64,000 bases of DNA. Source: Lacinutrix mariniflava. GTDB taxonomy: Bacteria > Bacteroidota > Bacteroidia > Flavobacteriales > Flavobacteriaceae. Made by a program: the position numbers and the translations under genes. Below the pieces are notes generated by a model that searched no databases, was not told the origin of the DNA, and worked only from the letters and a program-made list of their open reading frames with translations. Where the stretch lies: the NCBI RefSeq assembly GCF_001418015.1, contig NZ_LIQG01000026.1, forward strand, positions 1,116,001 to 1,180,000, in the 5' to 3' direction. Positions 849 to 16,858 of the stretch are shown here, one piece after another (positions within the stretch are counted from its first letter, which is position 1; each line of letters opens with the position of its first letter).

Positions 849-849
849 T

Positions 850-1494: not shown

Positions 1495-1497
1495 AAA

Positions 1498-1528
1498 AGT
1501 TTGCAGTATTCAGTTCGCAGTTTGCAGT
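1498..1528 (+). repeat. Short direct repeat between nqrD and nqrE
   Basis: AGTTTGCAGT occurs at 1498-1507 and again at 1519-1528, exactly 21 bp apart, with a related CAGTTCGCAG between them. The other nqr junctions in the window are 1-2 bp, so the 80-bp nqrD-nqrE gap looks like an insertion of a small repeated sequence into a conserved operon. Whether the unit is dispersed genome-wide cannot be seen here. Confidence 0.5.
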
Positions 1529-1574
1529 CTAACTCAAACCAAAAACTGAAGAATAAAACATAAAAAATAAAAAA

Positions 1575-2306
1575 ATGATAGAACATTTAGAATTATTTTT
1601 CAAGTCAATTTTTGTTGACAATATGGTGTTTGCGGTTTTCTTAGGTATGTGTTCATACTTAGCCGTTTCTAAAAAGGTTGCAACAGCAGTTGGACTTGGA
1701 GCAGCCGTAATATTTGTATTAGCGATCACTGTGCCGTTAAACTGGTTATTAGATCAATATTTATTACAACCTGGAGCATTGGCTTGGGCAGATGGAAGTG
1801 CAAACGGAGAAGGTTTCTCTGGTATGGATTTAGGTTTCCTTTCTTTCATTATGTTTATTGCTACTATTGCAACAATGGTACAATTAGTAGAAATAGTAGT
1901 TGAGAAATTCTCACCTTCATTATATAATTCACTTGGTATTTTCTTACCATTAATTGCAGTAAACTGTGCCATTTTAGGTGGTTCATTATTTATGCAATCT
2001 CGTGAAATTGAAACGTTTGGTTTAGCAGTAAATTACGGAGTATCTTCTGGAATAGGATGGTTTTTAGCAATTCTTGCCATTGCAGCTATTCGTGAGAAAA
2101 TTAGATATTCTAACGTGCCAGCACCTTTAAGAGGATTAGGAATTACATTTATCATTACAGGTTTAATGGGAATTGGATTTTTAAGTTTTGGTGGTATGTT
2201 AACAGGTGGAGAAGAAGAAGCTCCAGCTGAGCCAACAGCTCAAGTAGAAAAAGTAAAAACTGAAGACGCTAAGGTATTAGCCGAAAACACTAAAATAGCA
2301 GAGTAA
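1575..2306 (+). CDS. nqrE: Na+-translocating NADH:quinone reductase subunit E
   Basis: 243 aa; about six membrane helices in residues 1-200, homologous in topology to NqrD. Conserved Cys-containing segments are visible at [12 protein letters not shown] (about residue 26) and AVNCAILGG (about residue 134). These place it in the NqrE/RnfA family and mark the residues that ligand the shared iron centre. The family is normally near 200 aa; here residues 212-243 form an extra charged tail rich in Glu, Ala and Lys, seen in some Bacteroidota homologues and probably cytoplasmic and disordered. One base separates it from nqrF. Confidence 0.95.
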
Positions 2307-2307
2307 T

Positions 2308-3621
2308 ATGATTTTAGCAGCAGGAACAGGAGCAACAGTAATAACAACAGTAGTAGCGTTTTTAATAATAGCGTTAGTACTAATAAGTTTATTATTATTT
2401 GTTAAGCAAAAATTATCACCGTCAGGTCCAGTAAAGATCTTAATTAATGGTGAGAGAGAGATAGAAGTGGCTTCAGGAGGTACTTTATTATCTACATTAG
2501 GAAGTAACAAAATTTTCTTACCATCGGCTTGTGGTGGTGGTGGAACTTGTATTCAATGTGAGTGTCACGTATTAGAAGGTGGTGGAGAAGCGTTACCTAC
2601 AGAAACACCTCACTTTTCTAGAAAAGAATTAGCGCATGGTGCACGTTTATCTTGTCAGGTAAAAGTGAAACAAGACATGGAAATTACAATTCCTGAAGAA
2701 GTTTTCGGAATTAAAAAATGGGAAGCAACTGTAGTATCTAACTATAACGTAGCAACATTTATTAAGGAATTTGTAGTAGAGATTCCTGAAGATATGGGTT
2801 ACAAAGCTGGTGGATATATTCAAATTGAAATTCCTAATTGTGAAGTTAAATATTCAGAAATGGATGTTACTGCTCACCCAGATGATCATCCAGGTGAACC
2901 AAATAAATTTGAAGCAGATTGGGACAAGTTTGGCTTAAGACCGTTAGTCATGAAAAATGACGAGCTTGTTGAAAGAGCCTATTCTATGGCTTCTTATCCT
3001 GCTGAAGGAAGAAAAATTATGCTTAATGTGCGTGTAGCAACACCTCCTTTCGATCGCGTTAAAGGCGGATGGATGGATGTAAATCCAGGTGTGGCTTCTT
3101 CATATATATTTAACCAAAAAGTAGGAGATAAAGTAACAATCTCTGGACCTTACGGTGAATTCTTTATTAATGAGTCTGAAGCTGAAATGTTATATGTAGG
3201 TGGTGGAGCAGGTATGGCACCAATGCGTTCTCATTTATATGAATTGTTTAGAACATTAAAAACAGGTAGAAAAGTTACATATTGGTATGGTGGACGATCT
3301 AAAGCAGAATTGTTTTACATCCATTACTTTAGAGCACTAGAAAAAGATTTTCCAAACTTTAAATTCTTTATAGCATTATCAGATCCAACGGAAGCTGATA
3401 ATTGGAAACTTAAAGAGAGTGTTGAAGATCCTAATGGCGATGGATTTACAGGATTTATACATCAAGTAGTAATCGATCAATATTTATCTAAACATGAAGC
3501 TCCAGAAGATTTAGAATTATACTTCTGTGGACCACCATTAATGAACCAAGCGGTTCAGAAAATGGGTGAAGATTTTGGTCTTGATGACGAGAATATCCGT
3601 TTTGATGATTTTGGAGGTTAA
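2308..3621 (+). CDS. nqrF: Na+-translocating NADH:quinone reductase subunit F (NADH entry subunit)
   Basis: 437 aa. Domain order: N-terminal membrane anchor (residues 9-32), a 2Fe-2S ferredoxin domain with Cys75, Cys81, Cys84 and Cys116, an FAD domain with RAYSMASYP, and an NADH-binding domain with GGGAGMAP and a C-terminal CGPP motif. NqrF oxidises NADH on the cytoplasmic side and passes electrons through FAD and the Fe-S centre into the pump. Length and motifs match the family fully. It is the last nqr gene and is followed by an intrinsic terminator. Confidence 0.97.
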
Positions 3622-5153: not shown

Positions 5154-6137
5154 ATGAAGAAACCAATAACTTTATTATTATTATTAATAATAACACTACT
5201 TGTTTCCTGCAAACAAGAACTGAAAAACACTAAAGTTTCAGGTCCAATATTCGGAACATTTTACGAAGTTACTTTCGCTTCAACAAGTAATGAGAACTAC
5301 CAAAAACAATTGGATAGCTTGTTTTTTATCATCAATAAATCGATGTCTAATTATCAGGCAGATTCTGATATTTCCAAATTAAACAGAAATGAAACTGTAA
5401 CTGTAGATGCTCATTTTACTAAAGTATTTAAAGCTTCAAAAAAACTTTACAGAGAAACAGAAGGTGTTTTTGATCCTACAATTGGTAAGTTGGTTAATGC
5501 TTGGGATTTCGGATCAGAAAAACCTATTGCAAAACTCGATAGCGCAAAAATAGATAGCTTAAAACGCTATGTTGGTTTTAATAGAATAGGATTAGTAGAT
5601 AATGTTGTAAAAAAAGTAAATGGCGCTTTTTTAGACTTTAATGCTATAGCAAAAGGTTATGCGGTAGATGTCATTGGAGAATTTTTAGAATCTAAGGCTA
5701 TCAAAAATTACATGGTAAATATTGGTGGTGAGTTAAGAACAAAAGGCATCAATATAGACAAACAAAAAGGTTGGACTGTAGGTGTGGAAAATCCTAATTT
5801 CGATGATACCCAAAGTACTAATATTGTTTTAAATCTTAAAGATCAAGCTATGGCAACATCTGGAACGTATAGAAAGTTTAAACTAGACGAGAATGGAAAC
5901 CGCTATGCTCATATTATCAACACTAAAACAGGCTATCCAAGTAAAACAAATATATTAAGTGTATCGGTAATGGCTGATTCTTGTATGTTAGCAGATGGTT
6001 ATGCAACTGCTTTGCAAGCGATGGGAGTAATAGATGCTAAAATATTTTTATTTAATCATCCAGAATTGAAAGCCTATATTATTTTTGAAAATGAAGCTAA
6101 AGAGTTTGAAGTTTTAAACTTAAATGGGTTTATATAA
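5154..6137 (+). CDS. apbE: FAD:protein FMN transferase ApbE (lipoprotein)
   Basis: 327 aa. Signal peptide with lipobox LLVSC, so Cys19 is the predicted lipidated residue. ApbE family motifs in order: SMSNYQADSDISKLN, VFDPTIGKLVNAW, DFNAIAKGYAVD, VNIGGELRTKG, ATSGTYRKF, HIINTKTGYPS and the metal/FAD-binding ADSCMLADGYATALQAMG. The enzyme transfers FMN from FAD to a Thr or Ser of target proteins outside the inner membrane; NqrB and NqrC encoded upstream are the obvious targets. Length is normal. A bidirectional terminator follows. Confidence 0.95.
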   Translation: MKKPITLLLLLIITLLVSCKQELKNTKVSGPIFGTFYEVTFASTSNENYQKQLDSLFFIINKSMSNYQADSDISKLNRNETVTVDAHFTKVFKASKKLYRETEGVFDPTIGKLVNAWDFGSEKPIAKLDSAKIDSLKRYVGFNRIGLVDNVVKKVNGAFLDFNAIAKGYAVDVIGEFLESKAIKNYMVNIGGELRTKGINIDKQKGWTVGVENPNFDDTQSTNIVLNLKDQAMATSGTYRKFKLDENGNRYAHIINTKTGYPSKTNILSVSVMADSCMLADGYATALQAMGVIDAKIFLFNHPELKAYIIFENEAKEFEVLNLNGFI

Positions 6138-6169
6138 TAATTTATTTAGAATGAGAATATCTTAAATTT

Positions 6170-6205
6170 AAAAAGCCTTTCCATAAATTATGCAAAGGCT
6201 TTTTT
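6170..6205. terminator. Bidirectional terminator between apbE and the HlyD gene
   Basis: AAAAAGCCTTT (6170-6180) pairs perfectly with AAAGGCTTTTT (6194-6204), 13-nt loop. T-rich on both strands, so it can serve apbE (+) and the convergent HlyD gene (-). Confidence 0.85.
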
Positions 6206-6221
6206 GGTTATTGATTAATTG

Positions 6222-7511
6222 CTATTTAAAAATATCTTTTATTTGAGAGAAGAAACGTTCTACAAGACGTAAATCCTCAGTGATGATTTCTGCACTTCCT
6301 CTCATTTCTTGTTTAAAGTCAATTTGTTTTTTATAGGATGTAATTAAATTCTTAGGTAATTGAGCTAGTATTAAATAAAAACCTTCTTCATTAGGAACTA
6401 ATGTTATGTTATTTACTTTCGCTTGTAAGGTCCCAAATTCTGCTTCAGGATAGTTTTCTAATTTAATATTAACGGTTTGTCCTATTTTTAATTTGCCGGA
6501 ATTTGTAGCAGGTGTTTTCAATTTTGCAATATATGTTGAGTTTTCCGTTGGTATAATGGTAAAAATCAAATCGCCTTGATTTACGGTTTCGTTTGTTCTC
6601 CAATAGTTTGAAAATGCTATTTTGCCATTTATATTAGATTTTAAAACATATTGTGTTTCCCAATCTTTAATGGCTTTTTTTAGTTGGTTAAAAGATTGAA
6701 TAACGCTTTTTAAAAGCATCATTTCTTCTTTTGTTCTATTTATTTCTGTGCCTTTTGAAGATTTGTTAGCATTACTTATAGATTCTCTTATTTGAGAGAT
6801 AGAAGATTCAAAACTTTTTAAATTCTGTTCAGCTTGAAGAAATTCTACTTGCTTGTTTTCATATTCTAATCGTGCAATTGTTCCGTTTTTAAATAGACTT
6901 TTATATCTATTTAAGTCTTTTTTCTTTAATGCTAATTGAGATTGGTTTAAAGCTAATTGGTCTTTAGAGCTTTTTAGTCGTCTATGTAATTCTGATATCG
7001 AATTTTTATTTGCTAATGCTTCGTTAGAAAATGGTTGTAAATCTTTATTTAAAGTATATTGTATATAATTGTTTTCGAATAATGCATATTGCGTATCAAT
7101 ATCTCCTAAAAACAAAACAGGTAATTCGTCTATTGGAAAAGTAAAGGATTTTGTATTTACTTTTATAGTATCAATTATATCTTTTAATTTATAAACATCC
7201 TCAAAATTCGAGGTGTTTTCTATAATAGCAAGAGGACTATTTTTAATCACTAAGTCATTATCTTTTATTAAAATAGTTTCTAGTTTTCCAGTAGATTGTG
7301 CAATTAGTTTTTCGGAAGGAATATGTGTAGTTAGTAATGCTTCTGTATTAATAACATCTGGGTATTTTATAAGCCAACTTAAACCAAAAAATAAAATAAT
7401 TAAGCTCAAAAATAAGAGGTTGCCATAACGTATCATCCAATGAGGTACATAAGATAATATGTCTTGTACCTGCTCACTTCTTAATTCTATTTCTTCTAGT
7501 TTTTTTGACAT
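6222..7511 (-). CDS. HlyD-family periplasmic adaptor of peptide exporter
   Basis: 429 aa. A single membrane helix at about residues 29-48 is followed by a lipoyl/barrel-sandwich half motif, a long coiled-coil region (about 160-280, rich in K, Q, L and S), and a second barrel-sandwich half (NGKIAFSNYWRTNETVNQGDLIFTI). This is the layout of membrane-fusion proteins that couple a C39 ABC transporter to an outer-membrane channel. It is the last gene of a minus-strand export locus with two double-glycine peptides and the C39 transporter (7956-10148). An outer-membrane factor gene is not seen nearby. A hairpin precedes the gene. Confidence 0.88.
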   Translation of the reverse strand: MSKKLEEIELRSEQVQDILSYVPHWMIRYGNLLFLSLIILFFGLSWLIKYPDVINTEALLTTHIPSEKLIAQSTGKLETILIKDNDLVIKNSPLAIIENTSNFEDVYKLKDIIDTIKVNTKSFTFPIDELPVLFLGDIDTQYALFENNYIQYTLNKDLQPFSNEALANKNSISELHRRLKSSKDQLALNQSQLALKKKDLNRYKSLFKNGTIARLEYENKQVEFLQAEQNLKSFESSISQIRESISNANKSSKGTEINRTKEEMMLLKSVIQSFNQLKKAIKDWETQYVLKSNINGKIAFSNYWRTNETVNQGDLIFTIIPTENSTYIAKLKTPATNSGKLKIGQTVNIKLENYPEAEFGTLQAKVNNITLVPNEEGFYLILAQLPKNLITSYKKQIDFKQEMRGSAEIITEDLRLVERFFSQIKDIFK

Positions 7512-7524
7512 TTAATTTTTTTTA

Positions 7525-7552
7525 AAATAGAGGGAAATTAATCCCTCTATTT
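7525..7552 (-). terminator. Hairpin between peptide gene and HlyD gene (attenuator-like)
   Basis: AAATAGAGGGA (7525-7535) and TCCCTCTATTT (7542-7552) form a perfect 11-bp stem with a 6-nt loop. On the minus strand it is followed by only four T, so it may terminate partially or protect the 3' end of the peptide mRNA, letting peptide transcripts exceed those of the adaptor. Confidence 0.65.
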
Positions 7553-7581
7553 ATTTAATAGCTCTTTGTTTTAATGGACTA

Positions 7582-7803
7582 TTAATTCAAAGTATTTCTA
7601 ATTGGTTCAAGACTTACTTGACAATTATTAGGATCACCATTATTAGGAACTCCACAATAACCGTTTCTAGGATCTCTTTCCAATCCTTTACAACATTCAT
7701 TTGAAGCACATTGGTTATGTGAGTTACAATGTTTTCTTCCTCCATTAATAGTTTTCTGTTCAGCTTTTGTTAAAGCTTGTCCTAAGTTTTTTAAATTTTT
7801 CAT
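7582..7803 (-). CDS. Double-glycine leader peptide with six-cysteine core (bacteriocin-like)
   Basis: 73 aa. Residues 1-22 form a double-glycine leader (LTKAEQKTINGG) of the type cut by C39 peptidases. The 51-residue core holds six Cys at positions 26, 32, 37, 38, 50 and 61, i.e. C-x5-C-x4-CC-x11-C-x10-C, a disulfide-rich layout like small toxins or cystine-knot peptides but with longer final loops. The leader is identical to that of the 55-aa peptide at 10299-10466 in 19 of 22 residues. The C39 exporter and HlyD genes flank it. It is probably exported, cleaved after GG and oxidised; its target or signalling role is unknown. Confidence 0.85.
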   Translation of the reverse strand: MKNLKNLGQALTKAEQKTINGGRKHCNSHNQCASNECCKGLERDPRNGYCGVPNNGDPNNCQVSLEPIRNTLN

Positions 7804-7840
7804 AATTAAAATATTTATAAATTAAAATTAAAGTGATCGT

Positions 7841-7881
7841 TTAAAGACAGTCACCATTTCTGTCTATTCCTCGCGAGAGAA
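7841..7881 (-). promoter_or_regulatory. Conserved upstream element of peptide 1 with 6-bp dyad
   Basis: Element of 41 bases, 36 identical to 10503-10543 upstream of the other peptide. AGACAG (7845-7850) and CTGTCT (7860-7865) form a perfect dyad with a 9-nt spacer, next to CTCGCGAG (7870-7877). It ends 37 bp from the start codon. No TAnnTTTG box is visible, so it may be an operator, an alternative promoter or a leader RNA stem. Confidence 0.65.
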
Positions 7882-7888
7882 TTCCTTT

Positions 7889-7951
7889 TATCATTCCTAT
7901 AAAAGCAGGAATTTATTTTATGTTTTCAGAGGCTTCGACAATACTTAGCCA
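7889..7951. repeat. Dispersed-repeat relics downstream of the exporter gene
   Basis: Two degenerate dyads: ATTCCT/AGGAAT (7893-7898 and 7907-7912) and GGCT/AGCC around TCGAC (7931-7950). They resemble common flavobacterial intergenic repeats. The first could also act as a weak hairpin after the exporter gene, but there is no T-run. Confidence 0.4.
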
Positions 7952-7955
7952 AACA

Positions 7956-10148
7956 TTAATTCCCTAATTCTAACTGGTTTTTCACCAAATTATAATAATT
8001 TGCTTTTTTTGCAACTAGCTCTTTATGGCTTCCTATTTCTATTATTTTTCCATTATCTAAAACTACAATCTGATGCGCATTTTTAACTGTGCTTAATCTG
8101 TGCGCTATAACAACTACTGTTTTGTCTTTAAAAAAAACATCTAAGTTTTCCATAATTACTTTTTCATTATTAGCGTCTAAAGCAGATGTGGCTTCATCAA
8201 AAAATAAATAATCTGGATTTTTATATACTGCTCTGGCAATAAATAAACGTTGTTTTTGTCCTGTACTTAATCCAGAACCTTCCGTTCCTATTTTTGTGTT
8301 GTATGATAATGGTAAAGATTCTATGTATTCTCTAATGTTAGCGACATCAATGGCGTGTGCTAACCTTTTTTTATCAATGCTATCTTCTCCAATAGCAATA
8401 TTGTTGGCTATGGTATCATTAAAAAGGTACCCTTCTTGCATAACAACTCCATAATGGTCTCTCCACGATTTTTGAGAGATGTTTTGCAACGATGTATTAT
8501 TTAATAAAATATCACCTTCATTAGGTTTATAATAACCTAAAAGTAATTTCATTAATGTGGTTTTACCACTTCCGCTTGTACCAACAATTGCTGTAGTTTT
8601 GTTTGCAGGAATATTAAGGTTTAAGTTTTTTAAAACTTCAATATCTGATCCTGTATATTTAAAAGAGATATCTCTAATTGATATGTTTGCATTTTTAGGA
8701 ATGTCTTTAATTTTTTGTTGTGGATCGATTTCTTCGTTTTCCATATTATGGATTTCGCTTAAACGATCTAACGATATTTTGGCATCTTGCAATTCTCTTA
8801 CAAAACCAATAAGTTGCATAACAGGAGAGTTTAACTGTCCAACGATGTATGAAATAGCTAGCATCATACCTAAAGTAATATCTCCATCTATAACTAGTTT
8901 TGCAGATAAAATAGTAATAAATATATTTTTAAGTTCGTTTATAAAGGATGAACCAACACTTTGCGTTTGCTCTAATGCTAAGCTTTTTATCGAAACTTTA
9001 AATAGTTTCGCCTGTGTGTGCTCCCAAGCCCAACGTTTTTGTTTTTCTGCATTATGCAACTTAATATCTTGCATGCCATTAATAAGTTCTATAACTGTGC
9101 TTTGTTCTTGGCTTAAGGCTGAAAAACGTTTGTAATCTAAGGTTGCACGTTTCTTTAAAAAGATTTTAATCCATAAAAAGTATAAGAAACTACCAATTAC
9201 AAAAATGGTAAATATTTGAAGGCTATAGTAGCACAGTACAAAACTGAATACTATAAAGTTTACTATAGAAAATAATACGTTTAAGGACGATGTAGTTAGT
9301 ATTTGTTCAATACGTTTGTGGTCGTTAATACGTTGCATTAAATCTCCTGTCATTTTAACATCGAAATAGGAGATAGGAAGTAGCATTAATTTGATAAAGA
9401 AATCGGAAATTAATGAGATGTTTATTCTGGTACTAACATGTAGTAAAATCCAACTTCTAATAATCTCTATTCCTGTTCTACCAATAAATAAAGCAATTTG
9501 CGCAAATAGAATTAGGTATATAAAGTTGAGGTCTCTGTTTTTAATACCAACATCTACAACACTTTGTGTTAAAAATGGTACAACTAACTGAAGTAAGCTA
9601 GCAGCTAGTAAGCCAATACAGAGTTGAATTATAAAACTTTTGTATTTATATAGATATTTTGATAAATAAGTGAAGTTGAATTTTTGCTCTTCGTCTTCAT
9701 CAAATGCATTATTGTAAAACTTTGGAGTAGGATCTAATAGTAATGCAATCCCATCTTGTGTGTTTTCTGTTACATTATTACCAATCCAGAATTTTAAAAA
9801 TTCTTCTTCAGTATAATTTATTAAACCATATCCAGGATCTGAAATATAATAAATGTCTTTTTTTATTTTATAAAGTACCACATAATGATCCTTGTTCCAA
9901 TGTAAAATACAAGGTAGTGGCGCTTTTTTTAACTCTTCTAAAGTTAATTTAACTCCCAAACTTCGAAAGCCCACAGTCTCAGCAGCATCACTTAAATTAA
10001 GTAAACTACTACCTTCTCTTGTGGTTTCGCTTATTTCTCTAATTTGAGTAATAGACAAGTTTTTACCATAATACTTAGCAATAATTTTTAAGCATGTTGG
10101 TCCACAGTCTTTAGATTCTGCTTGTTTGTGTGTTGGGAATTTTTTCAA
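7956..10148 (-). CDS. C39-peptidase-containing ABC exporter
   Basis: 730 aa. Residues 1-130 are a C39 peptidase domain with catalytic Cys15 (KDCGPTCL), His88 (KDHYVVLY) and Asp104 (SDPGYG), so it should be active and cut after double glycine. Six membrane helices follow (about 165-440), then an ATPase domain with Walker A GTSGSGKTT, signature LSTGQKQR and Walker B YLFFDEATSALD. It exports and matures the two cysteine-rich peptides encoded beside it. Translation starts at TTG (10148); no in-frame ATG precedes the catalytic Cys, so the TTG is well supported. It lies between the two peptide genes. Confidence 0.95.
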   Translation of the reverse strand: MKKFPTHKQAESKDCGPTCLKIIAKYYGKNLSITQIREISETTREGSSLLNLSDAAETVGFRSLGVKLTLEELKKAPLPCILHWNKDHYVVLYKIKKDIYYISDPGYGLINYTEEEFLKFWIGNNVTENTQDGIALLLDPTPKFYNNAFDEDEEQKFNFTYLSKYLYKYKSFIIQLCIGLLAASLLQLVVPFLTQSVVDVGIKNRDLNFIYLILFAQIALFIGRTGIEIIRSWILLHVSTRINISLISDFFIKLMLLPISYFDVKMTGDLMQRINDHKRIEQILTTSSLNVLFSIVNFIVFSFVLCYYSLQIFTIFVIGSFLYFLWIKIFLKKRATLDYKRFSALSQEQSTVIELINGMQDIKLHNAEKQKRWAWEHTQAKLFKVSIKSLALEQTQSVGSSFINELKNIFITILSAKLVIDGDITLGMMLAISYIVGQLNSPVMQLIGFVRELQDAKISLDRLSEIHNMENEEIDPQQKIKDIPKNANISIRDISFKYTGSDIEVLKNLNLNIPANKTTAIVGTSGSGKTTLMKLLLGYYKPNEGDILLNNTSLQNISQKSWRDHYGVVMQEGYLFNDTIANNIAIGEDSIDKKRLAHAIDVANIREYIESLPLSYNTKIGTEGSGLSTGQKQRLFIARAVYKNPDYLFFDEATSALDANNEKVIMENLDVFFKDKTVVVIAHRLSTVKNAHQIVVLDNGKIIEIGSHKELVAKKANYYNLVKNQLELGN

Positions 10149-10201
10149 AAAACGTGTAGTTTTTTAGAGTTGAATATTTCTAAAATGAGAGGTATTGTAA
10201 A

Positions 10202-10242
10202 TAAAGAGAGTGAGTTTAGCCTAGGCTAATTCGCTCTCTTTA
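10202..10242 (-). terminator. Long hairpin between peptide 2 and exporter gene
   Basis: TAAAGAGAG (10202-10210) pairs with CTCTCTTTA (10234-10242), and inside it TTAGCC (10216-10221) pairs with GGCTAA (10224-10229). Together with G-U pairs it makes about 19 bp with one bulge. The following minus-strand bases are TTTACAA, a short T-run. Likely an attenuator or mRNA-stabilising hairpin that lets the peptide be made in excess of the exporter. Confidence 0.7.
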
Positions 10243-10298
10243 AAAAAGTAGTATCATTAAAATATTGATTATACTTTATTATACATTGTTGTTAATTA

Positions 10299-10466
10299 TT
10301 AATTACATCTTTCTTGGCAACGATACCAGCCGTATTCAGAGCCAGGTAAGTTAACCTGACACGGTTTTTGACCATCTGGACAAATATTCATGATTGGATA
10401 CCCACCATTAATTGTTTTTTGTTCTGCTCTAGATAAAGCTTTTCCTAAGTTTTTTAAATTTTTCAT
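10299..10466 (-). CDS. Second double-glycine leader peptide, four-cysteine core
   Basis: 55 aa, ATG at 10466, stop TAA at 10299. The 22-residue leader (LSRAEQKTINGG at its end) matches the leader of the 73-aa peptide except for three residues. The predicted 33-residue core begins YPIMNICPDG and has four Cys at 29, 36, 50 and 54, enough for two disulfides. The 24 bases around and upstream of the start codon are identical to those of the other peptide gene. The core is unlike peptide 1, so the pair shares export signals but not function-determining sequence. It is followed by a hairpin and then the C39 exporter. Confidence 0.85.
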   Translation of the reverse strand: MKNLKNLGKALSRAEQKTINGGYPIMNICPDGQKPCQVNLPGSEYGWYRCQERCN

Positions 10467-10502
10467 AATTAAAATATTTATAAATTATATTTGCTATGAA
10501 CA

Positions 10503-10543
10503 TTAAAGACACTCACAGTTTGTGTCTATTCTTCGCGAGAGAA
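10503..10543 (-). promoter_or_regulatory. Conserved upstream element of peptide 2 with 6-bp dyad
   Basis: Second copy of the 41-base element. AGACAC (10507-10512) and GTGTCT (10522-10527) form a perfect dyad with a 9-nt spacer. Compared with copy 1 the innermost pair changes from G-C to C-G, so pairing is kept although both bases differ. TTCGCGAG follows. It ends 36 bp from the start codon, almost the same distance as copy 1. Confidence 0.65.
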
Positions 10544-10555
10544 ATTTTGTTCAAA

Positions 10556-10584
10556 ACGCAAAGCCTTTTTTTAGGGCTTTGCTG
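10556..10584 (-). terminator. Terminator of the VKOR-thioredoxin gene
   Basis: GCAAAGCC (10558-10565) pairs with GGCTTTGC (10575-10582) over a 9-nt loop, directly after the minus-strand stop at 10587. On the minus strand GTTTTG follows. It separates the VKOR gene from the upstream element of peptide 2. Confidence 0.7.
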
Positions 10585-10586
10585 TT

Positions 10587-12203
10587 TTATATAGTGTTTT
10601 GTAATTGCTTTGTTAGTGTATTTACGTGGCAAGACTCGTTTAATTCTTCAATAAAATAAGTTAAGTCGCTTCTTTCGTATGCTTTTGGGTACGATTGTCC
10701 ATTTACTAATATTTCCGGTGTGAAATTGATGTTGTTGTCTAAACACCAATTGTATTCAGCTTCAAGAATCTCTTTGTATATCTCAGCATTGTTAGATTTT
10801 TTCCAAGTCTTTAACCAGGATTTAGCATCTGCATTATTATATATTTCATGCATGGCCTCTAGGCATTTTAGTTCACCTTTAGTATGGAATAATTCTAATA
10901 ATCGACTTGAGACCAATACACCGTCACTTTCTGGATTGCTGGTGTTTATGTTAAAACGAATAGTAATGTTTATTTCTTTATGGTGTGTTTTTAAAAGAGA
11001 TTCAACCATATTGTGTGCGCTTTTACAATGTCCGCAAAATGGGTTGGTAATTACTGTAATGTTTAAAGGAGCATTTTTATTTCCTAAAACTATTTCTGTT
11101 GTATTTGTAAGTGTTGTATCAACAGCTTCAGACTGTTGTAAAAGCGTATTAAATAAGTCGAAGTTTCTTTTAAATTTACTAGACTCAATTTTTAATTTTT
11201 TAAAGCCTTGTTCTTGCTTTAATTTAGAACTGATAAACATCCAAATGTAAGCGATAGTAATAAATGAGAATCCAATTAATAAGATTGAAGTCAAACTTAA
11301 TACTGAAAAACTAAAAGTTGTAAAAAAGAAAGTCGCAGCTTGCAGGACTAAAACAGATGCAATACCTAAACATAAAACACACCAATTTTTAGATACTTTT
11401 ACTTGATAATAAATAGAATATGCAACTATAGGTAAGCCAACTAAACTTATTAGGTACAGTATGTTTAATGACATATTTGTTAAAAGCAATAAAAGAGACG
11501 CTATACATATAGATATAAAGTAAATGAAACTAACATCACTTAGTTTAATGTTTTTATATAATGTTGCACCTTTAGAATTTAAAACCGCATTACAGTTAGT
11601 AGTTTTGCTTTCTTGTGAGCAAATACTATCTACAATTTTAGAATCTAATCCCAAATCATGTTGAATGATTAAATAGGTTATGGTTATTCCTATCGATGTG
11701 GTTAAAAAGTAAAAGGTTTCAGTGAAATTTGGGCTAGACTTAAAAAAAAGCACGCTAAATAATAGTAGTGCTATAATAAATAAAGGTTTTTGTAAATTAG
11801 TAGTATTGGTTTGTATAATCTGTTTTGTGTCGTCTTTTTCTACAGCGACAAGAATTCCTGTAAATTGTTCTAAAAAAATAGTTTCAGAAATAGTTTTACT
11901 TTTTTTGTTGCTAAATATAGTTTTGTAGTTTTTATCTTTTTTGATAACTAGGGCAAAATCTGTATCGTTCTCGGTGTTTAACTGAGCTATAAAACTAGGA
12001 GGTAATTGTTCTAAAGTATCTTTATCTATAGCTACACGAGTAGCTATATTGTCTATATCAAAGTGATTTAGCACTCCAGTTATTGCATGTAAACTCGGAT
12101 AAGATGGGTGACTTTGTATTTGGAAACCTAATTCTTCAGCATCAATTTTGATTTTGTTTTTTTGAAGAAGCGATTGTACTAAAAAGGATAAAGTGTCTTT
12201 CAA
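10587..12203 (-). CDS. C39-like / VKOR / thioredoxin fusion, disulfide-forming membrane protein
   Basis: 538 aa in three parts. Residues 1-125 look like a C39-type peptidase domain that lacks the catalytic Cys (HPSYPSLHAITGVL is the family-like segment). Residues 140-325 are a vitamin K epoxide reductase domain with four or more helices, loop cysteines Cys195 and Cys204 and the active CVLC (275-278). Residues 370-530 are a thioredoxin-like domain with CGHC (390-393) and cis-Pro496. VKOR regenerates the oxidised thioredoxin partner with quinone, so the protein should form disulfides outside the membrane. The two neighbouring exported peptides with six and four Cys are likely substrates. Start is TTG at 12203; no alternative ATG exists nearby. 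Confidence 0.88.
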   Translation of the reverse strand: MKDTLSFLVQSLLQKNKIKIDAEELGFQIQSHPSYPSLHAITGVLNHFDIDNIATRVAIDKDTLEQLPPSFIAQLNTENDTDFALVIKKDKNYKTIFSNKKSKTISETIFLEQFTGILVAVEKDDTKQIIQTNTTNLQKPLFIIALLLFSVLFFKSSPNFTETFYFLTTSIGITITYLIIQHDLGLDSKIVDSICSQESKTTNCNAVLNSKGATLYKNIKLSDVSFIYFISICIASLLLLLTNMSLNILYLISLVGLPIVAYSIYYQVKVSKNWCVLCLGIASVLVLQAATFFFTTFSFSVLSLTSILLIGFSFITIAYIWMFISSKLKQEQGFKKLKIESSKFKRNFDLFNTLLQQSEAVDTTLTNTTEIVLGNKNAPLNITVITNPFCGHCKSAHNMVESLLKTHHKEINITIRFNINTSNPESDGVLVSSRLLELFHTKGELKCLEAMHEIYNNADAKSWLKTWKKSNNAEIYKEILEAEYNWCLDNNINFTPEILVNGQSYPKAYERSDLTYFIEELNESCHVNTLTKQLQNTI

Positions 12204-12244
12204 AATAATTAAGAATTGTTTGTTTTCTTAACTGTTCCTGAAGT

Positions 12245-14890
12245 CTAAGATTTGTTACCCACAATTTTTAATTTTTTTATGCTAAATATTAAGAATAATA
12301 AAAACAAAACACCTAAAATGCTATTTATTAGTAAATTATCATTGAGTTCTATTGCCGAATTATCACCAATTAAAATTAAGGAAGACCAATAATATGGGGA
12401 GGCTTCACTTAAAGAATGCGACTCTATGTAGTCTAGTTTTGCTTGTCTAAGTGCTGCACTTTTTGTTTTTCCTTCTTTTAGGTAACTATAAAAGCTAATA
12501 GTTATCTCTGTATTCGATTTGTCGTTTACATTCCAAAGTGAAGAAACTACACTATTTGCTCCAGAATAGAAGAAAGCACGTGCTAAGCTAAAAACACCTT
12601 CTCCATTATTTATTTTTCCTAAAGAACTATTACATGCGTTTAATACTACTAATTCTGCTTGATTTTTTATTGTATACAACTCGTTTAGGTATAATTTTTC
12701 ATTTTTAAAGGCAATCCATGGTGAAATAGAATCGCTAGCGTTAGAGTGAGTTGATAAGTGTAGTATTTTATATTTTTTAATTTTATTAATAAAATTTCTT
12801 TTGTTTGCTTCTTTATTAATTAATGAAGTACCATTTAATTGTTTACTTATAGTATTCGTTTCTTTAATACTTTGAGGTAGCTTTTGTAGATTGTCGTAAT
12901 CAAAAGAATTGGGAGCAAAGCCTATAAAAGGTAGTTTAGCATTTCTTGCTATTTTAGTATTAAAATTTAAAAAAGATAGAGAATAAACATAAGATAATTC
13001 ATGGTCTTCAATTAAATATTTGTTTTTCTTTCTTAAATTTTCAAATGCGAGGTGCTGTAATGCTTTGTCAGGAACAATAAGTAACTTTTGTTTTGTATTG
13101 ATAATAGATTGGATGTTTTTTGGAAACAAGTTGTTGTATAATTTGTTTGCTAAGGTAAAGCACTCTTTAATATCTGATTTATTAACAAATGGATTAGCGA
13201 TTAGTTTTAAATAGATATTAATGTTTGTATTTGTAATTTCGTGATTGTTTAGCTTGGTTAAAATTATTTCATCCTTAGTTATTAGCAATACGTAGCTTTC
13301 TTTTTTACCTAATATGTATTCTAGAATTGCAGTGTCTCCATCTAAATTACTTTTTACTGTTTCCAGATTAACAAGATTTAATGGTTTATTTAATTTATAG
13401 TGATTTGGATATTTTTTAGACATTGCCTCAATAAAGCTAGTGTATTTTATTTTTAAGCTATAGTATTGATCTAAAATATGGTAATTAGTTTTATTTTCCA
13501 TTTTGTTTTCTAAAGCAGAAATTTTGTTTTTTAAATCTAATTCTTTTTGTAGTAGATGTATAGGTATTGAAGCGTTGTCTGTGTTTTTAACAATGTTTTC
13601 TAATAATAATAATGCTTTATTTTTTTCAATAAAATAAAAACTTTCATCTGTCTTTTTTAATTTAGAACAGGCATCAACTGCGAGCGTATACAGTTGTGAA
13701 GCTTCTTTTTGCCAAAAGAGTTTAGATTTTTTTTCGAAACTTTCAGTTCTTATAAAATCTAATAATTTATCTGTTAATCTAATATTTTTATATGCATATG
13801 TTAATAAATCTTTATTTTTTACATCAGATTCAAGAATATGTCTTGATTTTTCTTTTAAAATTAAGAACGTTAACGTTTTATCATTTGATCTTTTAACGAT
13901 ATTATAGTTAGGTACATAATATAAAGAAGAGTCTATTTTAGTAGAAAGTGTTAATTGTAAAGCTTTGTTTAAATTTGTTAACCCATTTTGTGAATTATTT
14001 TGATTAAAATAGTAATCTGCCTTATTCAAATACGCTTTTGGGATAAATGAGTTATTTAAAGTATAGAATTTTATTGATTTATTTGCATAATAAAGAGCAC
14101 TGTCGTTTTTTTCTATATTAAATAAAGTCGCAATGTTATTTGAAGTGGCGCTAATTCTTAAAGAATCATTTATACCTAAAGCTATTTTTAATGCTTTGAG
14201 GTGATAATTCTTGCTTTTTTTATAGTCATAGTATGAGTTTTCTTTACCGTAATGTCTTCCATATTCATTATTTAAGGAGTAAAGTTCAGAAGTGTTTAAA
14301 GGAATTATTGAGCTAAGAGAATCTACCTTTTTTAGCAATATTGTATTCTCTTGTAAGGAACTATTCGTCTCAATATCTTGATTAAGACTTATTTTTTTTA
14401 GATAAATTAGAGGTAGACGTTTAGTGCTAATTTCATCTGAGTGTGTTAAGCCTTTGTTAAAGTATATCTTAGCTCTATAGTAGTCTCCTAATTTTTGAAA
14501 ATTTAAAGCATTTTCGCAGTATGCGCGATAAGTAAATTCATCTAGATTGAAACTATCTATTACTTTGTTATAGGTAATTATGGATTTTGAGTATTCTTTG
14601 TTTTTAAAAAAAAACAGGCCTAAATTAAATAGGCCGTTTTTATATTTTTCTCTGCTAATATATTTGTGATATTTAACTTCTTTTAATGCATATTCTATAG
14701 CTTTAGTATAGTTTTCTTTATAATAATAATCTAATGAGGTATTATGTGATAAATCAGCATATTCTTTTAACTTATTATTCTTAAGTTCTTTATGTAAAAC
14801 ATGATTAAGGCTGTCTATTTCTATACCCAACTCTTGACTAAAAGATTGGTAGAATAATAAAATAAAGAAACATGCGATTAAGTTTTTCAA
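12245..14890 (-). CDS. CHAT-domain caspase-like protein with TPR region
   Basis: 881 aa, TTG start giving a signal peptide (KNLIACFFILLFYQSFSQ). Tetratricopeptide-like repeats span about residues 25-420. The C-terminal CHAT domain carries the catalytic dyad His715 (HLSTHS) and Cys753 (LNACNSS), with GANSVVSSLWNVND downstream, all typical of this caspase/separase-clan family. A final membrane helix (about 853-872) precedes a basic tail. Thus the protease is predicted to face the periplasm, anchored in the inner membrane. Its lipoprotein neighbour begins 5 bp upstream and the divergent operon encodes a sigma factor, TPR protein and nuclease. The substrate is unknown. Confidence 0.9.
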   Translation of the reverse strand: MKNLIACFFILLFYQSFSQELGIEIDSLNHVLHKELKNNKLKEYADLSHNTSLDYYYKENYTKAIEYALKEVKYHKYISREKYKNGLFNLGLFFFKNKEYSKSIITYNKVIDSFNLDEFTYRAYCENALNFQKLGDYYRAKIYFNKGLTHSDEISTKRLPLIYLKKISLNQDIETNSSLQENTILLKKVDSLSSIIPLNTSELYSLNNEYGRHYGKENSYYDYKKSKNYHLKALKIALGINDSLRISATSNNIATLFNIEKNDSALYYANKSIKFYTLNNSFIPKAYLNKADYYFNQNNSQNGLTNLNKALQLTLSTKIDSSLYYVPNYNIVKRSNDKTLTFLILKEKSRHILESDVKNKDLLTYAYKNIRLTDKLLDFIRTESFEKKSKLFWQKEASQLYTLAVDACSKLKKTDESFYFIEKNKALLLLENIVKNTDNASIPIHLLQKELDLKNKISALENKMENKTNYHILDQYYSLKIKYTSFIEAMSKKYPNHYKLNKPLNLVNLETVKSNLDGDTAILEYILGKKESYVLLITKDEIILTKLNNHEITNTNINIYLKLIANPFVNKSDIKECFTLANKLYNNLFPKNIQSIINTKQKLLIVPDKALQHLAFENLRKKNKYLIEDHELSYVYSLSFLNFNTKIARNAKLPFIGFAPNSFDYDNLQKLPQSIKETNTISKQLNGTSLINKEANKRNFINKIKKYKILHLSTHSNASDSISPWIAFKNEKLYLNELYTIKNQAELVVLNACNSSLGKINNGEGVFSLARAFFYSGANSVVSSLWNVNDKSNTEITISFYSYLKEGKTKSAALRQAKLDYIESHSLSEASPYYWSSLILIGDNSAIELNDNLLINSILGVLFLLFLIFSIKKLKIVGNKS

Positions 14891-14895
14891 ACCTC

Positions 14896-15369
14896 TTAGT
14901 TATCGTTTGTGTAGTTATGTGGAGGTTGATATTCAGGGTTGGTGATTGAAATATCTGGATCTCCATTAACAGCAGTGTCTTTACCTGTAGGTGGTATGCC
15001 AGGTTGTGGTGTTGTACAGGTTATAGAAAGATCATAATAAATATTGGGATCTAAGTGCCAGATTTCTGTAGATTCGGAAATAGAAGTATAGTATAAAAGA
15101 CCAAGACAATAAGACCAATTATTTCTTACTATATCTTTTTGTCGTTTTGAGGTTTCAGGTTCATAAGTTACTAAATAGTTTACTGCTAAGGTATTAATGT
15201 TTACACCTGAATCTATGGGGCCATCTCCTTCAGTACTTTTGTATGCATTGTTTTCCTGCAATTTTTTGTCAAGTAATTGTTCATTTTCTATAAACGAATT
15301 ATCACTAGTGCAAGAATTAAATACAGTAAGACAAAAAGTTAAGAGTAACGTTAATTTAATAAATTTCAT
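14896..15369 (-). CDS. Putative lipoprotein of the CHAT locus
   Basis: 157 aa from the ATG at 15369; the frame extends upstream to 15429 but the lipoprotein signal (KLTLLLTFCLTVFNSC) fixes the start here, with Cys19 as lipid site. The mature part is acidic and Asn/Pro-rich at the end (PQPGIPPTGKD, PEYQPPHNYTNDN) and shows no known domain. It ends 5 bp before the CHAT gene, so the two are cotranscribed. It may be a sensor or substrate of the CHAT protein, which is inference from position only. Confidence 0.7.
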   Translation of the reverse strand: MKFIKLTLLLTFCLTVFNSCTSDNSFIENEQLLDKKLQENNAYKSTEGDGPIDSGVNINTLAVNYLVTYEPETSKRQKDIVRNNWSYCLGLLYYTSISESTEIWHLDPNIYYDLSITCTTPQPGIPPTGKDTAVNGDPDISITNPEYQPPHNYTNDN

Positions 15370-15473
15370 ATTTTTTTTGGTTATTAGTTTATATGTCCTT
15401 GTTCCTAAATAATTATATTTGTTACCCATTCAAATATAAAACTTTATTTGGATTACTTATACATACTTAATTA

Positions 15474-16037
15474 ATGAAAAATCAATCTGTCTACCTTAAG
15501 GCTTTAGTAAAGGGAGATACTAATCAAATTTTAAAAATATATGAAGCTTCTTTTCCTAACGTTAAACGATTTGTTTTTCAGAATAAAGGCAATCAAGCAG
15601 ATGCAGAAGATGTTTTTCAAAAAGCATTAATGCAATTAACAGTGCGTTATAAAAAGGAAAAATTCGAAATTAAATCTAGTTTTGAAGCCTATTTATTTAC
15701 TGTTTGTAAGAATTTATGGCGTAGAAAATTAAATAAATCTAAAAACGAGGTAACAATAGATGGTGTTATAGAACTAAAGAGTGAAGAGCGAGACATAGCA
15801 ATGTCTGTTTTAGAACAAGAACGATGGGAGTTTTTTCAAGAAAAGTTAGAATTAATCTCAGATAACTGTAAAGAAATTTTAAAACGTTTTTTTAAAAAGA
15901 TAGCGTATAAAGATATCGCTAAAGAACTTGGTTATAATGATGAAAACGTTGTAAGACAACGCGTTTTTAAATGTAAAAGTAAATTGTCGCAAATGATTAA
16001 AGAAGATATTAGATTTAAAGAATTAAAAGAATTATGA
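15474..16037 (+). CDS. Sigma-70 family (ECF-type) RNA polymerase sigma factor
   Basis: 187 aa. Region 2 spans about residues 20-80 (ADAEDVFQKALMQL...FEAYLFTVCKNLWRRKL) and region 4 about 120-175 with the helix-turn-helix AYKDIAKELGYNDENVVRQRVFKCKSKL. No sigma region 3 is present. It overlaps the next gene by 4 bp (ATGA), indicating coupled translation. It diverges from the CHAT/lipoprotein operon across 104 bp, so it may control both. No canonical TAnnTTTG box was seen between them. Confidence 0.9.
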   Translation: MKNQSVYLKALVKGDTNQILKIYEASFPNVKRFVFQNKGNQADAEDVFQKALMQLTVRYKKEKFEIKSSFEAYLFTVCKNLWRRKLNKSKNEVTIDGVIELKSEERDIAMSVLEQERWEFFQEKLELISDNCKEILKRFFKKIAYKDIAKELGYNDENVVRQRVFKCKSKLSQMIKEDIRFKELKEL

Positions 16038-16858
16038 ATTTTTCTGAAGACATATTGCAACAAATTGAAGACTATTTAAATGGCACAATGACCAAGGCTC
16101 AAACGTTCGCTTTTGAAACGCAGATTAAAGAGAATGCTGATTTAGCAAAAGCTTTAGGAATTAATAAAAAAATGCGTTTACAATACAGTGACGAAGAATG
16201 GGATTTTGTTAAAGACTATAAAAATAGAAAAAAAATAAACGAGCTAGAAGTGTTATTGAAGTCTAACGAACTTCAGGATAAAAAAAAAGCTATTCAAAAT
16301 GCAGGAGATCTTTATTTTAATAAAGTAAAACCTGAAAATGAAATAAGAAGAAACAAATCACTTCCTTTTTTAGCAATAGCTGCATCAATAGTTTTATTGA
16401 TTGGATATTTTACTTTTTTTAATAATGATTTAACTAATCAGGAAATATACGCGCAGCATAATTCTTGGGAAGAGTTGCCATCTTTAGTATCGAGAAGCGA
16501 AACTAATTCTAGTTTACTTTCTAATGGTGAGTCTGCTTTTATAAACAAAGACTATAAATTAGCCGAAGAACATTTTAATGCTTACGTTTCTAATAAAAAA
16601 GAAGTTAATATTAATGCACTTTTATATCTAGGAGTTTCACAATTGGAACTAGAAAATTATAATAGTGCATTAAAAAGTTTTCAAAAGATAATAGACTCTA
16701 ATACTCTAGATCAATCTAAAGGTTATTGGTACAAAGCTTTAGTGTATTTAAAAATGGATGACGAGAAGAACACTATAAATACATTGAATAGTATTGTAAA
16801 GGATTCTAAAAACTTTAATTTTGTAAAAGCAGAAAAGCTTTTAAAAGAATTAAACTAA
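16034..16858 (+). CDS. TPR membrane protein, putative anti-sigma partner
   Basis: 274 aa. N-terminal about 115 residues are cytoplasmic and charged, with a zinc-less anti-sigma-like start (EDILQQIEDYLNGTMTKAQ), followed by one membrane helix (about 114-132, AIAASIVLLIGYFTFF) and C-terminal tetratricopeptide repeats outside. This topology, with overlap to a sigma gene, is typical of anti-sigma factors in Bacteroidota. The stop TAA overlaps the ATG of the nuclease gene by one base. Confidence 0.75.
   Translation: MNFSEDILQQIEDYLNGTMTKAQTFAFETQIKENADLAKALGINKKMRLQYSDEEWDFVKDYKNRKKINELEVLLKSNELQDKKKAIQNAGDLYFNKVKPENEIRRNKSLPFLAIAASIVLLIGYFTFFNNDLTNQEIYAQHNSWEELPSLVSRSETNSSLLSNGESAFINKDYKLAEEHFNAYVSNKKEVNINALLYLGVSQLELENYNSALKSFQKIIDSNTLDQSKGYWYKALVYLKMDDEKNTINTLNSIVKDSKNFNFVKAEKLLKELN

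Follow-up and report, generated by a model that had tools for sequence, protein, structure and literature searches.

A C39-like, VKOR and thioredoxin fusion oxidase and a pseudoknot RNA element accompany double-glycine peptide genes in Lacinutrix and related Bacteroidota

The locus

We analysed a 64,000-nucleotide stretch of the Lacinutrix mariniflava genome (assembly GCF_001418015.1, contig NZ_LIQG01000026.1, positions 1,116,001 to 1,180,000; hereafter the window), in which the genes of two small cysteine-rich peptides lie beside those of a C39 peptidase–ABC exporter (PCAT), an HlyD-type adaptor and a protein with VKOR and thioredoxin domains. As a first-pass annotation of the bare sequence had proposed, all five genes lie together on one strand, here the minus strand, between 6222 and 12203 (Table 1). 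Two features are absent from that earlier description: the VKOR protein carries an N-terminal C39 domain without the catalytic cysteine, and an RNA element stands in front of each peptide gene. The unit may extend to a CHAT-domain protein and a divergent sigma factor (12245–16858).

To judge from its catalytic residues and ABC domains, the window PCAT is an active-type C39 exporter; among 49 PCAT-like open reading frames (ORFs) of related loci, patterns for the catalytic Cys, His and Asp motifs were present in 48, 46 and 43, respectively. The C39 domains of the PCAT and of the VKOR protein were the only two found in the source genome.

The related loci used throughout are those of the best 79 of 432 oxidase matches from a scan of named genomes. 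They come mostly from Flavobacteriaceae, with the best matches in Lacinutrix and Bizionia apart from one Saprospiraceae metagenome-assembled genome and one other Flavobacteriaceae. Neither the genomes nor the peptides are independent of each other in any of the counts below, and counts of peptides and RNA elements depend on patterns that we defined. The usual gene order, among the matches listed, is VKOR, peptides, PCAT, peptides, HlyD, peptides. Between the VKOR stop codon and the second RNA element of the window lies a terminator-like hairpin, and the corresponding stretch had a folding energy below −8 kcal/mol, a value taken without a shuffle control, in 34 of the 41 related loci measured.

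Table 1. Features of the locus, with positions in the window
Feature	Position	Strand	Evidence and remarks
HlyD-type membrane fusion (adaptor) protein, 429 aa	6222..7511	-	Pfam HlyD_3 45.3 bits; NCBIfam TIGR01843 101 bits, below its cut-off
Double-glycine-leader peptide 1	7582..7803	-	leader 7738-7803 (22 aa), core 51 aa, 6 Cys, order C-C-CC-C-C
RNA element 1, hairpin and H-type pseudoknot, before peptide 1	7826..7883	-	model R1 64.3 bits; pseudoknot hexamer 4.5 of 6
PCAT (C39 peptidase–ABC exporter), 730 aa, TTG start	7956..10148	-	Pfam Peptidase_C39 123.6 bits, ABC_membrane, ABC_tran; catalytic Cys/His/Asp motifs present
Double-glycine-leader peptide 2	10299..10466	-	leader 10401-10466 (22 aa), core 33 aa, 4 Cys
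RNA element 2, hairpin and H-type pseudoknot, before peptide 2	10488..10545	-	model R1 69.6 bits; pseudoknot hexamer 5.5 of 6
Terminator-like hairpin GCAAAGCC/GGCTTTGC, after the VKOR stop and before RNA element 2	10558..10582	-	sequence; followed by GTTTTGAACAA
C39-like/VKOR/thioredoxin oxidase, 538 aa, six hydrophobic segments, TTG start	10587..12203	-	
DsbA-like thioredoxin domain of oxidase (residues 367-519), active site C390-GH-C393	10647..11105	-	Pfam Thioredoxin_4
VKOR domain of oxidase (residues 166-290), C195, C204, C275xxC278	11334..11708	-	Pfam VKOR PF07884 45.3 bits, cut-off 27.5
N-terminal degenerate C39 domain of oxidase (residues 9-125)	11829..12179	-	Pfam Peptidase_C39 24.4 bits, cut-off 22
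TPR-CHAT protein, 881 aa, probably belonging to the unit, upstream of the oxidase	12245..14890	-	Pfam CHAT 183 bits
Lipoprotein-like ORF (by eye), 177 aa, before the CHAT gene	14896..15429	-	no Pfam match at E ≤ 1
Sigma-70 family factor, divergent	15474..16037	+	Pfam Sigma70_r2 36.1 bits
TPR protein paired with the sigma factor	16034..16858	+	Pfam TPR_6; recurs with the sigma factor

Two side observations concern the surroundings of such loci. The locus of the window is flanked by genes that, by eye, resemble those of Na+-NQR subunits and of an ApbE-like flavin transferase (102–3621 and 5154–6137). In Lacinutrix neustonica (L012/L016 and L033), a second oxidase copy and a PCAT are broken and lie beside an intact oxidase, which suggests duplication and decay of the cluster.

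An oxidase with a degenerate C39 domain

The six redox cysteines of the oxidase (C195, C204, C275, C278, C390 and C393) are invariant in all 79 sequences of the family, the window's own included, and the protein has both the loop cysteine pair and the membrane CxxC of the VKOR family. Pfam (E ≤ 0.001) recognized the VKOR domain in 79, Thioredoxin_4 in 74 and Peptidase_C39 in 63 of these sequences. The VKOR-fused C39 domain is predicted to be catalytically dead: all 25 PCATs sampled from the same loci have each of the three catalytic residues, Cys, His and Asp, versus 0, 2 and 1 of 25 sampled VKOR-fused domains. Foldseek searches with an AlphaFold2 (AF2) model of the oxidase (predicted local distance difference test, pLDDT, 85; predicted TM-score, pTM, 0.52) matched its C39 part to PCAT1 and to the isolated peptidase domain 7n87 (TM-score 0.64 by target, E 1.8e-4), and its thioredoxin part to BdbD and ScsC. 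We propose that the dead C39 domain docks peptide leaders and that disulfides would be formed by the VKOR–thioredoxin part.

The first-pass annotation had tied the VKOR gene to the peptide genes, and their co-occurrence bears this out. Cysteine peptides with a double-glycine leader lie downstream of the VKOR gene in 65 of the 69 loci with at least 5 kb of downstream sequence, so a VKOR gene found mostly without peptide genes is not the picture in this set. Within 10 kb of the VKOR gene, a PCAT occurs in 46 and an HlyD gene in 45 of the 69 loci, so that the VKOR gene is linked no less closely to the peptides than to the exporter.

C39–VKOR proteins are not rare among Bacteroidota VKORs, since nine of the 15 above-cut-off VKOR matches in 198 genomes of the class (our own included) have, by eye, a C39-like start. 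Distant relatives of the oxidase are named 'vitamin K epoxide reductase family protein' in NCBI annotation. One of them lies on a Parabacteroides distasonis plasmid (NZ_OY725766.1, L182) with a LanC-like protein, glycosyltransferases and a PCAT, and another on an Aureibacter plasmid with a PCAT and an HlyD protein.

One leader and many cores

The leaders of peptides 1 and 2 are MKNLKNLGQALTKAEQKTINGG and MKNLKNLGKALSRAEQKTINGG. The annotation's claim of matching double-glycine leaders on peptides with six and four cysteines holds: both leaders are 22 residues long, both have hydrophobic residues at −4 and −12 and a double glycine directly before the core, and the 6 and 4 cysteines fall in the cores. 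Peptide 2 barely reaches the NCBIfam model NF047798 ('leader_Chryseo, bacteriocin-like protein'; 23.6 versus a cut-off of 23.5 bits), and in the same scan peptide 1 stays below that cut-off. A leader search of the source genome returned only these two peptides.

Among the 79 loci, with the VKOR gene set on the plus strand, our strict leader pattern together with at least two core cysteines was found in 346 of 3,518 small plus-strand ORFs versus 0 of 4,428 on the opposite strand, and the pattern is therefore not a product of chance. The consensus from 340 pattern-selected peptides is L at −12, E at −8, Q at −7, I or V at −4 and G at −2 and −1. Related loci hold from 0 to at least 19 peptides, with cores of 4, 6 or 8 cysteines in arrays. 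In random pairs of peptides, cysteines excluded, identity was 0.60 in the leader and 0.13 in the core, and we therefore describe the family as one leader with many cores. A higher cysteine conservation (99.2% versus 59.8%) is not used as evidence, because equal cysteine number had been required of each pair.

Cysteine numbers are almost always even (318 even and 22 odd among 340 distinct strict-leader peptides; 137 and 7 among 144 after clustering of cores at 40% identity), which argues for the disulfide bonds that the annotation had suggested. The order C-C-CC-C-C of peptide 1 recurs in 37 distinct peptides of related loci. It is also the cysteine order of knottins and on that basis suggests a knottin fold for peptide 1; an AF2 model of this peptide reached a pLDDT of 65, and its best Foldseek match had an E value of 3.6.

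No immunity gene was seen among recurrent neighbours of at least 90 residues, shorter neighbours not having been searched. The peptides are most likely antibacterial, a role to which we give about an even chance. A possible, if less favoured, alternative is that they are signals or act on non-bacterial organisms, which would fit the lack of a visible immunity gene, the many cysteine orders (the knottin-type C-C-CC-C-C among them) and the arrays of dissimilar cores, with a random-pair identity of just 0.13. However, the loci of bacteroidetocins, according to Coyne 2019 (PMC6671954), likewise have no obvious immunity gene, yet their peptides kill.

Which side of the membrane the oxidase faces

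The first-pass annotation had suggested that the peptides are folded in the periplasm. The oxidase family has six hydrophobic segments, one more than Synechococcus VKOR, all of similar strength (peaks 1.54–1.94), and the AF2 model has helices at 138–155, 160–183, 221–241, 247–271, 276–294 and 304–342. If all six segments cross, the C39-like and thioredoxin domains therefore lie on the same side of the membrane. An N-terminal domain of about 135 residues without a signal peptide (none was seen by eye; no predictor was run) is expected to stay inside the cell.

The distribution of charge points the same way. Lysine plus arginine amounts to 0.13–0.27 per residue in the loops on the active-site side versus 0.03–0.05 on the other side, and by sums the bias has the same sign in 79 of 79 sequences; when stretches of similar length are compared, it holds in 78 and the remaining one is a tie. 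In five control VKORs, four from Bacteroidota genomes and one from PDB 4nv6 (which, with 3kp9, we take to be the Synechococcus VKOR–thioredoxin fusion), 2–3 lysines or arginines lie around transmembrane segments (TM) 2–3 and 2–6 around TM4–5; at these places the mean for the oxidase family is 0.38 in 15 residues and 0.34 in 24. The loop limits of the controls were set by hand, automatic alignment having placed them badly.

Segment count and positive charge thus favour oxidation on the cytoplasmic side. On balance we think that the docking domain, the active site and the thioredoxin domain face the cytoplasm, which would make oxidation before export likelier than the periplasmic folding that had been suggested, although the evidence is not decisive. 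Several points speak for caution about this orientation. Two of the seven control VKORs, short proteins without a thioredoxin domain (L111 and L121), carry 0–1 and 0 lysines or arginines at these places, like the oxidase family, so that the charge rule does not decide the matter. The first segment spans just 18 residues in the model, whose pTM is 0.52; if it were re-entrant, as it could be, the protein would have the usual orientation again. The thioredoxin domain is nearest to BdbD and ScsC, which act outside the cytoplasm, and the cytosol is reducing. As a separate observation, L111 and L121 are possible further cytoplasm-facing VKORs.

These points bear on a second arrangement, in which the peptides would be oxidized in the periplasm after the PCAT has cut and exported them, the C39-like domain serving as a cytosolic tether and the first hydrophobic segment not crossing. 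Canonical bacterial VKOR–thioredoxin proteins face the periplasm, the thioredoxin domain resembles DsbA-type proteins that act outside the cytoplasm, and segment 138–155 is short. This segment is nevertheless one of six of similar strength, and the charge bias is opposite to what periplasmic oxidation would lead one to expect in all 79 sequences; we regard this arrangement as somewhat unlikely.

A cytoplasm-facing active site would have parallels. Inverted DsbB or VKOR for cytoplasmic disulfide formation is mentioned in one paper, with a citation of Hatahet and Ruddock 2013, and the title of a paper on Aeropyrum pernix VKOR names two compartments. The archaeal protein and the engineered inverted enzymes thus indicate that a VKOR can function with a cytoplasm-facing active site; unlike the oxidase here, they have no tie to a peptide system. 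The terms C39, peptidase and Bacteroid are absent from a paper on VKOR phylogeny.

Relation to known systems

With bacterial VKOR–thioredoxin fusions the oxidase shares the VKOR and thioredoxin-fold domains, the loop cysteines, the CxxC and the thioredoxin CxxC, and it differs from them in the extra N-terminal dead C39 domain, the extra first hydrophobic segment and the inverted charge distribution. The exporter is like PCAT1, LahT and ComA, which are PCATs with a C39 domain; the fused C39-like domain matches the PCAT1 fold but lacks the catalytic cysteine and sits on the oxidase. HlyB also has a C39-like domain to which the fused one can be compared. Class II microcins such as microcin V combine a C39 ABC exporter, an HlyD adaptor and a double-glycine-leader peptide with disulfides, as the locus does, and have an immunity gene; we know of none with an oxidase or RNA element of its own.

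The nearest relatives in organization are the bacteroidetocins (class IIf). According to Coyne 2019 (PMC6671954), these comprise a double-glycine peptide with four cysteines, a PCAT, a protein with five transmembrane segments and a thiol oxidoreductase; the latter two are needed for full activity, and the oxidoreductase is proposed to form the disulfides. The same source counts 36 peptides in 35 regions, the founding two having a 15-residue leader and a 42-residue mature peptide with four cysteines. Bacteroidetocins thus already pair a double-glycine peptide and a PCAT with a thiol oxidoreductase, so that a dedicated oxidase is not new and the annotation's phrase of a little-described combination overstated the case; the fused enzyme, its orientation, the peptide arrays and the RNA element do seem to be new.

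Could the locus be nothing but a bacteroidetocin variant, a class IIf locus in which the separate transmembrane protein and thiol oxidoreductase have been fused into one gene? The logic is the same: both are Bacteroidota systems with a four-cysteine double-glycine peptide, a PCAT, an oxidoreductase and no obvious immunity gene. Here, however, the leaders have 22 rather than 15 residues and the cores have 51 residues with six cysteines and 33 with four; of the four-gene unit the PCAT is present, whereas the transmembrane part and the oxidoreductase form one protein with an added C39-like domain, and an HlyD protein is added. Unlike what is described for bacteroidetocins, the locus family also has arrays of 4-, 6- and 8-cysteine cores, with up to at least 19 peptides per locus, and the RNA element. 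Judged by leaders, cores, gene content and the RNA element, a mere variant seems to us somewhat unlikely.

A pseudoknot RNA element before the peptide genes

A 58-nucleotide (nt) element lies 5′ of both window peptide genes, and pattern and model searches found just these two copies in the source genome. It combines a hairpin (AUUCU, loop, AGAAU) with a downstream H-type pseudoknot: a stem (S1, AGACAC/GUGUCU), a 3-nt loop, a hexamer in the hairpin loop (for example CCUUGA or CUGUGA) and, about 9 nt after the stem, the complement of this hexamer (UCAAGG, UCACAG). In related loci, a pattern that fixes part of S1 matched 159 of 348 regions upstream of peptide genes, of which 156 were kept by position and 90 after removal of similar ones (alignment A3). 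From these 90 copies, both window copies among them, we built the search model R1, which contains the hairpin and S1 and leaves the pseudoknot pairs out.

The structure is supported by covariation on both sides. In the 90 dissimilar copies, the hexamer pairs with its own partner at 5.53 of 6 positions on average versus 4.47 (sd 0.07) with re-dealt partners, and none of 500 re-dealings reached the observed value. In a further alignment, A5, which does not depend on the S1 pattern, with 45 rows (the two window copies and 43 of 49 available loci from other genomes, all found with R1; L136, L139, L141, L144, L145 and L146 are omitted for odd length or context), 93.5% of cells are paired versus 80.1% in shuffles. 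Both partners vary in 15 of the 17 pairs, and cells with such double changes number 99 versus 24.8 in shuffles. Pairing falls to 33–52% when the partners are slid; by helix it is 84% in the hairpin, 98.5% in S1 and 96% in the pseudoknot.

In window positions 6000–17000, none of the Rfam 15 families matched across the element at E ≤ 1. At six other loci it gave two chance-level matches far below their cut-offs, one of them a U2 match of 23 bits (cut-off 46) that touches the element on the opposite strand in L130. Bacteroidetes motifs are present in a 2010 survey of 104 structured RNAs, and the word bacteriocin is absent from the part of it that is accessible. A literature search, weak in that subscription papers are poorly covered, found no publication on the element or on a C39–VKOR fusion with double-glycine peptides.

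The element keeps close company with the peptides. Another peptide gene lies within 60 bp upstream of 0 of the 159 genes with an element versus 102 of the 189 without, and we therefore take the element to head groups of peptide genes. Of 209 plus-strand R1 matches (E ≤ 0.01) in the related loci, 188 are followed, by pattern, by an ORF with a double-glycine leader; among the remaining 21, five precede clear leader variants (L034, L050, L055, L079 and L086), 12 have no ATG-started ORF of 28 residues in reach, three have an unclear ORF and one is at a contig edge. An element lies within 200 bp after the stop codon of 62 of 78 VKOR genes. Besides the two window copies, 216 of the 219 other matches at E ≤ 0.5 are on the oxidase strand, and two of the three exceptions are in L079, in which a second oxidase sits on that opposite strand. 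S1 mostly starts 58–67 nt before the ATG, the searched sequence being upstream regions only.

Searches of whole genomes, in which the gene following each match was judged by eye, gave a similar picture. In a sample of 295 genomes of the class, five, our own included, have the element; of 21 matches outside our own genome, 19 precede a peptide with a double-glycine leader, one an oxidase gene and one a 379-residue ORF. Of 299 genomes of the family, our own again included, 31 have the RNA (E ≤ 0.001) and 40 the oxidase (E ≤ 1e-20), with both in 27, the RNA only in 4, the oxidase only in 13 and neither in 255 (Fisher p 1.6e-24, for species that are not independent; each search drew 299 genomes, which we took to be the same ones). 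A double-glycine peptide comes next in 24 of 28 loci, each the best match of one of 28 genomes; the pattern had given 26, and L150, L157, L171 and L176 were not accepted by eye.

Copies differ with position. After the VKOR gene, 30 hexamers are of the GTGA class, 3 of the TTGA/TTGG class and 7 other; elsewhere, 75 are TTGA/TTGG, 19 GTGA and 20 other. Among 48 copies taken from the genome searches, 21 begin no more than 60 nt from where an upstream ORF ends; the sequences before the other 27 revealed no promoter at a fixed distance, TAnnTTTG occurring six times at scattered places. Three individual cases may be recorded. A shortened element (L136:1501–1551) stands directly before an oxidase gene in genome G192, from where it could affect the enzyme as well. 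A weak copy on the minus strand of L147 (1501–1558; E 0.0014), with good pseudoknot pairing, precedes the 379-residue, lipoprotein-like ORF. In genome G330 (L135, L140–L148), peptide genes with leader and element are scattered over several contigs.

That the element is a DNA site for recombination or cassette exchange, like integron attC, rather than an RNA is very improbable: it does recur both in arrays of peptides and in front of solitary peptide genes at other places of the genome, but its nearly constant strand and mostly similar distance to the start codon, its crossed, covarying helices, which neither duplex nor attC-like DNA needs, and the want of close upstream peptide genes (0 of 159 versus 102 of 189) all stand against it. 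As an RNA, the element would set peptide output, through processing and stability, through translation or through sensing. Our first choice is a processing and stabilizing element through which a single operon would yield more peptide than exporter and oxidase; it may instead act as a translational switch or as an element that senses a ligand or protein.

Upstream genes

The genes upstream of the oxidase recur in part of the family. Among 71 loci with at least 4 kb of upstream sequence, a TPR-CHAT gene lies at most 113 bp before the VKOR gene in 21, always with a divergent sigma-70 factor; a sigma factor is upstream in 25, of which four lack a CHAT gene close by. In 35 loci neither these genes nor the other recurrent upstream gene, described below, is present. 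The recurrence of CHAT and sigma genes hints that they serve the peptide cluster as a regulatory or protease unit, and regulation as a response to stress or rivals is plausible. The TPR protein encoded next to the sigma factor is a possible anti-sigma factor. A homologue (E ≤ 1e-6) of the 177-residue ORF was found only in L033 among the 79 loci. For the other recurrent gene, within 400 bp upstream of VKOR in 11 of the 71 loci, the label of response regulator was dropped, as Pfam gave nothing at E ≤ 0.01.

Discussion

The precursors share one leader, after whose double glycine the C39 domain of the PCAT would, by homology, cut. We propose that the dead C39 domain of the oxidase holds the same leader while the thioredoxin domain oxidizes the core cysteines and the VKOR domain passes electrons to quinone, as VKOR domains do; facing the cytoplasm, the oxidase would thereby fold precursors before or during their hand-over to the PCAT–HlyD exporter. 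We judge this mechanism as a whole, in which disulfide-bonded peptides are oxidized, cut and exported under the RNA element, to be reasonably probable. Its most specific form, a leader-guided cytosolic factory in which a dead C39 domain and an inverted VKOR–thioredoxin protein dock one shared leader and oxidize unrelated cores before export while a new class of pseudoknot RNA, largely specific to double-glycine peptide genes in Bacteroidota, controls the peptides, is more tentative, and we place it slightly below an even chance.

Besides the doubts about orientation, some observations weigh against this mechanism. Leader binding by the dead C39 domain is something that we infer. No PCAT lies within 10 kb downstream in 23 of the 69 loci, and 13 of the 40 oxidase-bearing genomes of the family have no RNA match. 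Positive selection on the cores was considered and rejected, the ratio of nonsynonymous to synonymous substitution rates being 0.17 (302 similar pairs) and 0.23 (32 close pairs), no higher than in the leaders (0.22 and 0.31).

As far as our searches reach, four things appear to be new: the three-domain enzyme with its dead C39 domain beside peptide genes, the orientation that is likely for it, arrays of cores behind a shared leader, and the RNA element. The element offers a search handle for double-glycine-leader peptides that gene callers may have missed and, as the scattered genes of G330 illustrate, can lead to peptides that lie away from the main cluster. It also raises the question of what a pseudoknot before the gene of a secreted peptide senses or protects. 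Prochlorosin synthetase is a precedent for one leader-guided enzyme that serves many cores, in that case for lanthionines. If our proposal is true, these bacteria would make disulfide-rich peptides with a private, leader-reading enzyme at the membrane face where one does not expect disulfides, and one enzyme would accept many unrelated cores, which would be useful for finding and making disulfide peptides.

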